A stretch of DNA of 41,190 bases from Candidatus Coprousia avicola (GTDB lineage: Bacteria; Actinomycetota; Coriobacteriia; Coriobacteriales; Coriobacteriaceae). The DNA lies in NCBI GenBank assembly GCA_018715125.1, contig DVMF01000046.1, forward strand, positions 1 to 41,190, read 5' to 3'. The position numbers and the translations under genes were made by a program. Below are positions 25,863 to 28,625 of this stretch, piece by piece (the first letter of the stretch is position 1; each line of letters starts with the position of its first letter). Under the pieces are notes generated by a model. It was not told the DNA's origin. It saw only the letters and a program-made list of their open reading frames with translations, and did no database searches.

Positions 25863-26849
25863 GTGGGGGCGCACCCCGCCGCCGCGCGGTCGCGCCTCGC
25901 CGCGCCCGCGTCCGAGCCGTCTTCCGACGCCGCGATCCCGGCGCCGTTCGCGCGGGCGCTCCGGGCGTATCTCGACCATCTCGCAATCGAGCGCAACCTG
26001 TCGGACAACACGGTCGCCGCCTACCGCCGCGACCTCACCGCCTACGGCGCGTTTCTGGCCGAGCGGGGCATCTTCGACCCCGATGCGGTCGACCGGCACG
26101 CGGTGGAGGATTTCGTGGCGGAGCGCCGCGCGGGCGGGTATGCCGACGCGTCGGTCGAGCGGTCGCTCTCGGCCGTGAAGGGCCTCCACGCGTTTCTGGC
26201 GCGCGAGGGCATGGCGTCGTCGCAGCCCGCGGCGGCGGTGCGGTTCCCCAAGAAGGAGGAGCGCCTGCCCGACGTCATCTCTGTCGCCGCCGCCGCGCGC
26301 CTCGTCGAGCAGCCGTTCCCGCCCACGGCAGCCGGCGCGCGCGACCGGGCGGTGCTCGAGGTGCTCTACGGCTGCGGCCTGCGCGTGAGCGAGCTGGTGG
26401 GGCTCGACCGCCGCGACCTCAACCTCGACGATGAGTTTCTGCGCGCGGTGGGCAAGGGGCGCAAGGAGCGGATCGTGCCCATCTTGGGCTCGGCGCGCGC
26501 GGCGCTCCTTTCCTATCTGGACGGGCCGCGCTCCGAGCTCGCGGCGCACGCCCGCCGGGGAGGCCCCACCGACGCGGTCTTTCTCAACAAGAACGGCGGT
26601 CGCCTCTCGCGCCAGGCCGTGCACGCGCTCGTCGAGCGCTACGGTCGCGCGGTGGGCATCGAGGGCCTGCACCCGCACACGCTGAGGCACTCGTTTGCCA
26701 CGCACATGCTCGCGGGCGGCGCCGACCTGCGCGTGCTGCAGGAGATCTTAGGCCACGCGAACATCGCGACGACGCAGATCTACACCCATGTCGACCGCAC
26801 GCAGCTGCGGGAGGTCTATCTGGCCTCCCACCCCCGCGCCCGCGCATAG
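25863..26849 (+). CDS. xerD: Tyrosine recombinase, XerD/XerC type
   Basis: This 328-residue protein resolves chromosome dimers at dif sites with its partner and FtsK. An N-terminal SAM-like core-binding domain (about 25-125, YLDHLAIERNLSDNTVAAYRRDL) precedes the catalytic domain. Catalytic residues are Arg in YGCGLRVSELVGL, Lys in VGKGRKERIVP, His-x-x-Arg in HTLRHSFATHML, His in LGHANIATTQIYTHV and the nucleophile Tyr in that motif. The GTG at 25863, one base after the pyrG stop, gives a disordered Ala/Pro-rich lead of about 20 residues; a shorter start is possible. No attachment-site pair or integrase neighbours are seen, so a housekeeping Xer is likelier than a phage integrase. Confidence 0.9.
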   Translation: MGAHPAAARSRLAAPASEPSSDAAIPAPFARALRAYLDHLAIERNLSDNTVAAYRRDLTAYGAFLAERGIFDPDAVDRHAVEDFVAERRAGGYADASVERSLSAVKGLHAFLAREGMASSQPAAAVRFPKKEERLPDVISVAAAARLVEQPFPPTAAGARDRAVLEVLYGCGLRVSELVGLDRRDLNLDDEFLRAVGKGRKERIVPILGSARAALLSYLDGPRSELAAHARRGGPTDAVFLNKNGGRLSRQAVHALVERYGRAVGIEGLHPHTLRHSFATHMLAGGADLRVLQEILGHANIATTQIYTHVDRTQLREVYLASHPRARA

Positions 26850-26964
26850 CGCGTAAGGGGCACCCCTCGGCACGTCAGCGCCCGACCTGCGGCTTCTCTA
26901 ATTCGTCACAAATCCGCAGCTACGAACATCAATTCGATTCAAGTTTTCCTTGAAGGTTAGGCTT

Positions 26965-27013
26965 TCCGCCCGCCTTCGACCTATGGGGGTTCACCTTCGG
27001 GCGGACCCCCATA
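26965..27013. other. Two interlocked GC-rich stems upstream of mraZ
   Basis: TCCGCCCG (26965-26972) pairs with CGGGCGGA (26998-27005), and TATGGGGGT (26982-26990) pairs with ACCCCCATA (27005-27013). The arms alternate, so they either form an H-type pseudoknot or exclude each other as switching hairpins. A smaller stem TTCAAG/CTTGAA (26938-26954) precedes them. The whole gap 26850-27194 also contains the G-rich array and the mraZ -10 region; no gene is seen. Confidence 0.55.
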
Positions 27014-27037
27014 TCTTGTGGTCAGCGAGGTGCGGTG

Positions 27038-27112
27038 TGGGGCGGTGGGGGACCGCTCGGGGCGAAGTGGGGGACGCTGGGGGAGAAAATGGGAAAAAGT
27101 GGGGCCATGGGG
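27038..27112 (+). promoter_or_regulatory. Array of TGGGG boxes: candidate MraZ operator
   Basis: TGGGG or close variants begin at 27038, 27046, 27058 (CGGGG), 27068, 27078, 27090 (TGGGA), 27100 and 27108, mostly about 10 bases apart. MraZ is known to bind direct TGGG(N) repeats with 5-base spacers in front of its own operon. The array ends 83 bases before the mraZ start and just upstream of a -10-like TATAGAAT (27124-27131). Confidence 0.7.
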
Positions 27113-27123
27113 AGGCGATTGCC

Positions 27124-27131
27124 TATAGAAT
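27124..27131 (+). promoter_or_regulatory. Putative -10 region of the mraZ operon
   Basis: TATAGAAT gives two overlapping -10 hexamers, 64 bases before the mraZ start. The expected -35 position is occupied by the last TGGGG boxes, so a repressor bound there would block RNA polymerase. Confidence 0.5.
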
Positions 27132-27194
27132 GGATGACGTCGACAGCGGGGTGGCTCCCGCACCTGCCCACGAGAAGCCTAAGGGGGTTGAGCG

Positions 27195-27632
27195 GTGTAC
27201 CTGACCGGTTCCTACGATCGAAATCTCGATGCCAAGGGCCGTCTGTCGCTCCCGCCCGCCTTCCGCAAGGACCTCACCGAGCAGGTAAGGGTCATCTACG
27301 CTCCTGAGAAGGAGGTCGACGCCGTGTACGTGTTCACCGAGGACACGTTCCGGGCTTGGCTCGACGCGGTGTTTGAAGCGAAGGGCGGGTTCGACCCGAC
27401 CAACGAACAGCACCGTCAAGTCAAGGAATGGTTGAACGGTGAGGCAACCACACTCGAAATAGACTCCGCCTCCCGCATCAGCCTTCCTGAGGAGTGCCGG
27501 GCGGATGCGCACCTCGACCGCGAGGTGACGGTGGTCGGTAACGGCGACCGTCTCGTGGTCTGGGACCGTGCGACCCACCAGGCGCGCAAGGCGAGCGTCC
27601 GCCAGGCCGTCGCGAACTTCTTCGACAACTAG
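27195..27632 (+). CDS. mraZ: Transcriptional regulator MraZ
   Basis: This 145-residue protein is built of two SpoVT/AbrB-like halves, each with the DxxxR motif (DAKGRLSLP near 11-19 and DSASRISLP near 91-99). MraZ forms a ring-shaped oligomer that binds G-rich direct repeats and represses the division and cell-wall cluster. Here it is the first gene of that cluster. The GTG at 27195 has AAGGGGG (27181-27187) 7 bases upstream, and homology begins with MYLTGSYDRNLDAKGR. RsmH follows after 27 bases. Confidence 0.96.
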   Translation: MYLTGSYDRNLDAKGRLSLPPAFRKDLTEQVRVIYAPEKEVDAVYVFTEDTFRAWLDAVFEAKGGFDPTNEQHRQVKEWLNGEATTLEIDSASRISLPEECRADAHLDREVTVVGNGDRLVVWDRATHQARKASVRQAVANFFDN

Positions 27633-27659: not shown

Positions 27660-28625
27660 ATGGATGAGGGAACGTTGACACCTGAATATCGGCATGAACC
27701 CGTGATGCTCCAGGAAGTGCTGGAGACGCTCGCGATCGCACCCGGCGCCACGGTGTGCGACTGCACCCTCGGCGGCGCGGGCCATTCCTCCCGGATGGCC
27801 CAGGCGGTGGGGGAGGAGGGGCTCCTTATCGGCATCGATCAGGACGACATGGCGCTCGAGGCGGCTGGAAAGCGGCTCGACGCCGAGGCTCCCGGGGTCC
27901 CGCACAAGCTCCTCAAGGGGAACTTCGGCGACCTCGACCGCCTGCTCGTGTCTGCGGAGGTGCCCGGTGTGGACGGATTCCTCTTCGACTTGGGCGTGTC
28001 CAGCCCCCAGCTCGATATCCCGGAACGGGGCTTCTCGTACAACGAGGACGCCCCCCTCGACATGCGGATGGACCCGAGTAACAACACTCTAACCGCGGCT
28101 GATGTCATCAATACCTTTGACGGACCAGACATCGCTCGGGCCCTGCGCACGTTAGGCGACGAGAAGTACGCGCGCGAAATCGCGCGCGAGATCTGTCGGC
28201 GCCGGGAGGTGAAGCCCATCGAGACCACCGGCGAGCTCGTCGACGCGATCAAGGCGGCCATCCCCGCCGCGGCGCGCCGGCACGGCCACCACCCGGCGCG
28301 GAAGACCTTCCAGGCCATCCGCATCGTGGTGAACCGCGAGCTCGATGTGCTGGAGGAGGGGCTCGAGGCGGCGATCCGGTGGCTGAACCCGGGAGGGCGC
28401 ATCTGCGTCATCTCGTACCACTCGCTCGAGGACCGCATCGTGAAGCACACCTTCCAGGAGATGAGCCGGGGCTGCACCTGCCCGCCGGATCTGCCGGTAT
28501 GCACGTGCGGCAACGTGCCGACACTCAGAGTCATAACCCGAAAACCGCTGGTTGCAAGCGCCGAGGAGGTGCAGCGCAACCCGCGGGCGAGATCGGCGAA
28601 GATACGCGTCGCCGAGCGCCTGTAG
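27660..28625 (+). CDS. rsmH: 16S rRNA (cytosine(1402)-N4)-methyltransferase
   Basis: This 321-residue SAM-dependent enzyme methylates C1402 in the ribosomal decoding centre. Motifs are YRHEPVMLQEVLE, the SAM loop CTLGGAGHSSRM, FDLGVSSPQLDIPERGFSY, LDMRMDPSN, KTFQAIRIVVNRELDVLEEGL and ISYHSLEDRIVKHTF, with a Cys-rich CTCPPDLPVCTCGN region. Length and position after mraZ are standard. GAGAAGGAG precedes the ATG. Confidence 0.97.
   Translation: MDEGTLTPEYRHEPVMLQEVLETLAIAPGATVCDCTLGGAGHSSRMAQAVGEEGLLIGIDQDDMALEAAGKRLDAEAPGVPHKLLKGNFGDLDRLLVSAEVPGVDGFLFDLGVSSPQLDIPERGFSYNEDAPLDMRMDPSNNTLTAADVINTFDGPDIARALRTLGDEKYAREIAREICRRREVKPIETTGELVDAIKAAIPAAARRHGHHPARKTFQAIRIVVNRELDVLEEGLEAAIRWLNPGGRICVISYHSLEDRIVKHTFQEMSRGCTCPPDLPVCTCGNVPTLRVITRKPLVASAEEVQRNPRARSAKIRVAERL

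Follow-up and report, generated by a model that had tools for sequence, protein, structure and literature searches.

A helically phased array of G-rich boxes upstream of mraZ in a Collinsella relative, a probable MraZ operator with a conserved three- to four-box core

Introduction

MraZ is a widespread division regulator whose sign of control differs between bacteria: it is described as a repressor in Escherichia coli and mycoplasmas, whereas loss of MraZ lowers expression of the dcw genes in Neisseria. The stretch of DNA analysed here (41,190 nucleotides from Candidatus Coprousia avicola, contig DVMF01000046.1, hereafter the window) carries an array of G-rich boxes at 27038-27112 that lies in the gap between a XerD-type tyrosine-recombinase gene (25863-26849) and mraZ. 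The locus raises the question of whether this array is an MraZ operator, whether it is truly larger than other operators of its kind, and in which direction it would act on the promoter.

Results

The array precedes a genuine mraZ

The draft genome carrying the window (2.42 Mb) is that of a Collinsella relative, with an MraZ sharing 99% identity with its counterpart in Collinsella sp. An268, and its dcw cluster is headed by a genuine mraZ. This gene (27195..27632, + strand, GTG start; PF02381, 66.7 bits) encodes the transcriptional regulator MraZ, and is the sole gene found in the genome whose product contains both Pfam MraZ domains. It is followed by the second dcw gene, rsmH (mraW; 27660..28625, + strand; PF01795, 384.7 bits), and then by ftsL and a gene for an ftsI-type penicillin-binding protein. 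A predicted model of the window MraZ (pLDDT 90) superposes on solved Mycoplasma MraZ with Z scores of 18.6 to 20, consistent with an MraZ fold. The features expected of an MraZ operator are recognizable: the array stands before an mraZ that heads a dcw cluster, a two-domain MraZ is encoded in the same genome, and TGGGN/GTGK direct repeats recur at 10-base steps in the core of the array, with one apparent 12-base step.

Eight G-boxes in helical phase

Runs of three or more Gs occupy positions 27039-42, 27047-51, 27059-62, 27069-73, 27079-83, 27091-93, 27101-104, and 27109-112. Seven of these are preceded by T (boxes 27038, 27046, 27068, 27078, 27090, 27100, and 27108), and the box at 27058 is CGGGG, without the T. 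The eight boxes with 8- and 12-base breaks described in an earlier sequence-only reading are thus borne out, as seven TGGG and, with 27058 included, one CGGGG, at successive steps of 8, 12, 10, 10, 12, 10, and 8 bases. With seven TGGG in 75 bases, this is the densest such cluster on either strand of the window, where about 0.27 are expected per 75 bases per strand and the reverse-strand maximum is two. Among 5,000 dinucleotide shuffles of the array's own 75 bases, only 0.06% contain at least seven TGGG, and none reaches the array's count of five boxes followed by a partner at a distance of 10 or 12 bases. The centres of the G-runs fit a line with a slope of 10.26 bases and a residual standard deviation of 0.79 (P = 0.00055 against random gaps with run lengths kept). 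A genome-wide search with the pattern TGGGN6TGGGN6TGGG gave no matches, which is uninformative, as the window array itself escapes the pattern through a 2-base slip.

The longest strict chain of TG[GT] boxes at 10- or 12-base steps in the window comprises four boxes (27068-27100), and we propose 27068..27104 (+ strand) as the core MraZ operator, with TGGGGG at 27068, TGGGGGAG at 27078, TGGGA at 27090, and TGGGG at 27100. Upstream lies a species-variable extension (27038..27062, + strand) of TGGGG at 27038, TGGGGG at 27046, and CGGGG at 27058. The eighth G-box, TGGGG at 27108..27112 (+ strand), lies between the -35 site and the predicted -10 and is not conserved as TGGG.

Position relative to the predicted dcw promoter

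We compared the window with loci of its own family (f1, which includes named Collinsella loci), of two other families in the same order (f2 and f3), and of other orders. MraZ is present in 61 of the 65 f1 genomes; two at contig edges (G043 and G044) were left out and 59 were read, of which four loci of genus g2 (L031, L034, L062, and L063) with no TG at the -35 box were excluded from the f1 counts. The remaining 55 loci were aligned on the -35-site box and form 35 clusters at 85% identity. For f2, f3, and the other orders, 24, 25, and 23 loci could be aligned from 30 each; the remainder had no anchor or, in the case of L080 and L126, were truncated or misplaced. Offsets are given from the anchor, the TG at the -35 box (27100 in the window).

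The -35/-10 pair was located by comparison of the relatives, with a predicted -10 of TAGAAT (27126..27131, + strand); TA..AT lies 17 bases behind the -35 TTG in 30 of the 35 f1 clusters and 18 bases behind it in the other five. A plain sigma-70 consensus scan of 26840-27200 for a promoter and a terminator finds nothing, missing TAGAAT too, so the predicted dcw promoter derives from comparison only. The box at the -35 site (27100..27107, + strand) is TGGGGCCA in the window and TGTTGC, in which TTG is the -35, in most relatives. The TTG is lost only in L003, L004, L005, L006, and L008, all of the window's genus, such that GGG replaces it in five of the eight analysed genus members (the window and four of seven congeners).

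The f1 consensus reads TGGGGGAGaaaGTGGGAAAAA.TGTTGC, 17 bases, TA..AT, with boxes extending upstream from the -35. That of f3 and the other orders is TGTTGC.AAGTGGG....AGTGG.ATA, in which boxes at 0, +10, and +20 coincide with the -35, the spacer, and the -10, and TGGG is present at +10 in 21/25 (f3) and 22/23 (other orders). All four class groups share a TG box phase-locked to the promoter at 0 (the -35), with further boxes at either +10/+20 or -10/-20. The window array stops short of the predicted -10 (27126), and boxes between the -10 and mraZ, the E. coli-type placement, are not found.

Two other arrangements were seen among the relatives. In L062 and L063 (f1, genus g2), TTG is missing and the G-boxes continue beyond the expected -35, ending about 15 bases ahead of the -10, which may represent another promoter layout within f1. 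In L078, L082, L086, and L094 (other orders), TGGG faces an inverted CCCA about 20 to 25 bases upstream of the -35 (for example, GTGGGATGAATTCCCAC), a palindromic arrangement of MraZ-like half sites.

A conserved core and a drifting but nonneutral extension

At offset 0, TG is present in 35/35 f1 clusters, which holds by construction, and the box is TGTTG in 32 and TGGGG in three. Exact TGGG is found at 27090 (offset -10) in all 35 clusters, at 27078 (offset -22) in 29, and at 27068 (offset -32) in 13, and at 27058, 27038, and 27046 in just four, two, and one, respectively; box 27108 is TGGG in one cluster, with some form of GGG in 17. Only three promoter-proximal boxes (27078/80, 27090, and 27100) are thus position-fixed in f1. 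Between offsets -75 and +12, the 40 distinct f1 sequences contain from two to seven TGGG (seven in 4, six in 2, five in 6, four in 13, three in 8, and two in 7), and the window is among the top four.

One reading of this pattern is that only the three promoter-proximal boxes function, and that the upstream G-runs are neutral G-rich sequence or products of repeat slippage. The poor retention of the exact upstream positions is as expected from this, and one relative (L059) lacks a single unit of about 12 bases when compared with its close relatives, consistent with slippage. However, between offsets -75 and -24 the f1 sequences contain 59 TGGG but only five CCCA (21 versus 3 in -75 to -50 and 38 versus 2 in -50 to -24), whereas further upstream (-110 to -75) the two are found six and eight times. 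Moreover, the distances of these 59 upstream TGGGs to the -22 box are phased (R = 0.58 at 10 to 10.5 bases), and the phase persists in 20 sequences less than 50% alike (R = 0.53 to 0.55), a value reached in none of 4,000 uniform placements; these tests count related sequences as independent and the values serve as guides. The drift of the upstream TGGGs is not neutral, with enrichment on one strand and helical phase with the core, and we regard the neutral explanation as unlikely. The sequence-only reading had named conservation of three boxes, with the rest drifting, as the outcome that would speak against an enlarged operator; three boxes are indeed fixed and most others drift, but not as neutral sequence would.

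Chains of three to four TG[GT] boxes at 10- or 12-base steps are the commonest in all groups examined, a count that took in four sister groups and 30 loci from a phylum-wide sample, and are present in 27 of the 35 f1 clusters. The conserved core is three to four boxes, and the eightfold expansion is species-specific. Of the proposal of an expanded MraZ operator, the identification as an MraZ operator is well supported by the mraZ that follows and by the conservation of box type, phase, and strand through the class, whereas expansion toward eight boxes is confined to a few species, with seven TGGG in 4/40 f1 sequences, and is not general.

Two registers within the TGGGGGA boxes

Much of the 8- and 12-base irregularity vanishes because TGGGGGA boxes also contain GGGGA two bases further on. 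With this second register, 27038, 27048, 27058, and 27068 share a 10-base grid; another grid, shifted by 2 bases, holds 27080, 27090, and 27100 in exact 10-base phase. At offset -20 (27080), T or G followed by GGG is present in 35/35 family clusters and GGGGA in 32/35, and at offset -22 TGGGG is present in 29/35; in sister family f2, offset -20 has GGGGA in 4/24 clusters and TGGGA in another 4/24. These counts suggest that conservation falls on the box with exact 10-base phase, in the 27080 register.

Comparison with known MraZ operators

The E. coli K-12 operator, which we read directly from the sequence, is TGGGA-TGGGG-TGGGA at 10-base steps. The window array resembles it in having TGGGN direct repeats at 10-base steps that precede mraZ; however, the three E. 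coli boxes lie at -43, -33, and -23 from the ATG, behind the -10 TAAACT, whereas the window has more boxes, placed upstream of and across the -35. The Mollicutes operator is given as (AAAGTGKN3)3 with K = G or T (PMC5282649), which covers the -35 form AGTGTTG. It shares with the window the 10-base direct repeats, the TG core, and the MraZ fold (predicted here), and differs in that the window boxes are G-runs, with one on the -35 site and additional variable boxes upstream. The four-box core matches a Mycoplasma genitalium complex whose PDB entry (9sz7, with 9r4j) is titled "MraZ in complex with 4 box promoter", a comparison that extends to the entry title; our literature search found no paper on that structure. 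In Burkholderia cenocepacia, PMC7761207 describes a dcw operator of four 7-base repeats with 3-base spacers and places the boxes behind the -10 in this species and in E. coli. The number of repeats is like that in the core here, but the B. cenocepacia repeats follow the -10 and cover the start site. The main difference from the published operators appears to be one of position, the f1 array lying upstream of and across the predicted promoter. A literature search of incomplete coverage gave no report of an MraZ operator from Collinsella or from any other member of the Coriobacteriia.

Discussion

We consider it most likely, with a probability of roughly 70%, that the boxes are an autogenous MraZ operator, most likely repressing by covering the -35. 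The MraZ boxes would govern the predicted promoter of mraZ-rsmH-ftsL-ftsI. Because chains of three to four boxes are the commonest and the strict chain in the window has four, we propose that a single MraZ octamer grips the three to four boxes nearest the promoter along one helix face (27068-27104), with the two-base choice of register in the TGGGGGA boxes probably absorbing the apparent 12-base step. With the last box on the -35 site, bound MraZ would block RNA polymerase and lower its own and the dcw transcript, a negative feedback. The upstream boxes could be extra same-face sites, individually dispensable, that raise local MraZ occupancy, perhaps by allowing a ring to slide or two rings to bind. 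Where GGG has overwritten the -35 TTG, in the species group of the window, intrinsic promoter strength may have been given up in exchange for an improved MraZ box. We favour repression as the sign of control, given the overlap of the last box with the -35 and the boxes that span the core promoter in the sister families.

Nonetheless, most of the array is upstream of the -35, the region where activators usually sit, and direct-repeat boxes are known to replace a poor -35 at activator-dependent promoters, such as those with pho boxes. MraZ could thus activate, or both activate and repress, the dcw promoter here, with the boxes standing in for a poor -35. In addition to the location of the array upstream of and over the -35, the loss of the TTG from the window and four of its congeners without an obvious extended -10 is consistent with this, and in Neisseria elongata MraZ has a positive effect on dcw transcription, with lower expression of the dcw genes on mraZ deletion and higher expression on overexpression (PMC9395523). 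However, the TTG at the -35 is kept in 32/35 f1 clusters, the boxes of f3 and the other orders extend over the -35, the spacer, and the -10, an arrangement that speaks for occlusion, and PMC8475190 describes the MraZ proteins of E. coli and M. genitalium as repressors. Activation is a less likely but live alternative. A yet more doubtful proposal is that the array has replaced the -35 and made the promoter MraZ-dependent, recruiting polymerase at low MraZ and shutting off at high MraZ, with an NrdR-like site upstream (see below) coupling dcw to nucleotides. If so, the extended, phase-flexible array with its two-register TGGGGGA boxes would host rings that aid polymerase recruitment, and expression of cell-wall and division genes would be tied to nucleotide supply through the NrdR-like site.

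The G-tracts could also serve chiefly to control mraZ expression as a G-quadruplex, in DNA or in RNA, a potential that had been raised from the sequence and is real: the G4Hunter mean over 27038-27112 is 1.72, a score this high being reached by 2 of 41,116 75-base windows of the contig, the array included, and besides the array the plus strand of the window has three other G4 motifs. Four tracts of at least three Gs with loops of 1 to 7 bases are present here, but such motifs occur in 18/35 f1 clusters versus 2/24, 2/25, and 1/23 in the three sister groups, and the TG boxes and their 10-base phase persist in those groups. Furthermore, the most constant boxes include TGTTG, which interrupts the G-run, and the array is upstream of the predicted start, such that an RNA G-quadruplex would require an upstream start. 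We reject a G-quadruplex as the main function, which is very unlikely given that the potential is not conserved and looks like a by-product. Staphylococcus aureus likewise has several G-tracts before mraZ, and in PMC11796246 a G-quadruplex in that promoter region is shown biophysically and in reporters; as given there, the S. aureus tracts are read as a G-quadruplex behind the promoter, whereas those of the window form phased boxes of the MraZ type that precede the -10. The main text of that paper contains none of the terms MraZ box, direct repeats, and MraZ binds, and we caution that G-tracts at mraZ promoters read as G-quadruplexes may be MraZ boxes.

Returning to the MraZ operator, its position relative to the promoter is a more informative difference than box number. 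The Coriobacteriia present a natural series in which the same boxes lie within the promoter, across the -35, or upstream, and the effect of box number and position on control is therefore testable.

Neighbouring elements

Between the predicted promoter and the mraZ start is a leader hairpin, GCGGGG-TGGC-TCCCGC (27146..27161, + strand). Listed sequence by sequence, its stem is kept in nearly all of 42 distinct leaders, with paired changes in a few (GCGAGG/CCUCGC, CGGAG/CUCCG, and ACGGGG/CCCCGU); the RNAalifold consensus of the 42 is weak (-1.7), partly since the aligner split the stem. The loop UGG(C/U) is conserved in f1, and by eye, GUGG in the loop could base-pair with CCAC further downstream, close to the ribosome site. 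A search of Rfam with the window leader (E up to 5) returned no known RNA family and two chance matches, and the leaders of eight relatives gave only microRNA-type matches below their cut-offs, all of them at a single site of L019.

Upstream of the MraZ array, at a nearly constant distance, is a palindrome with the consensus ACAC(A/T)A(C/T)AT.T(T/A)GTGT, which resembles the NrdR-box consensus. At least 13 of its 16 positions are matched in 33/35 f1 clusters, 9/24 in f2, 9/25 in f3, and 0/23 in the other orders, at -94 to -98 from the -35 box in 29/35 (for example, -96/-97 in L009, L020, and L033) and at -85, -85, -86, or -119 in four more. The window copy (27006..27021, + strand) is degenerate, matching 12 of 16 positions, with its left half degraded. 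NrdR is encoded in the window genome, where the same palindrome pattern precedes nrdD (L167; NRDD Pfam, E = 2e-84). These patterns suggest that the dcw operon is connected to dNTP control.

In the window and in An268, an inverted repeat, TATGGGGG / CCCCCATA (26982-26989 and 27006-27013), is found just upstream of the array, with its right arm in the place of the NrdR-like palindrome's left half. A different palindrome, GAACN4GTTC, presumably the LexA/SOS-box form, is present in 8/24 f2 clusters (L132, L133, L135, L145, L147, L148, L152, and L155), at about -93 to -97 from the -35 box in all eight. It is found in 1/25 f3 clusters, in 0/35 f1 clusters, and in none of the coding controls, and the f2 dcw operon may be under SOS control.
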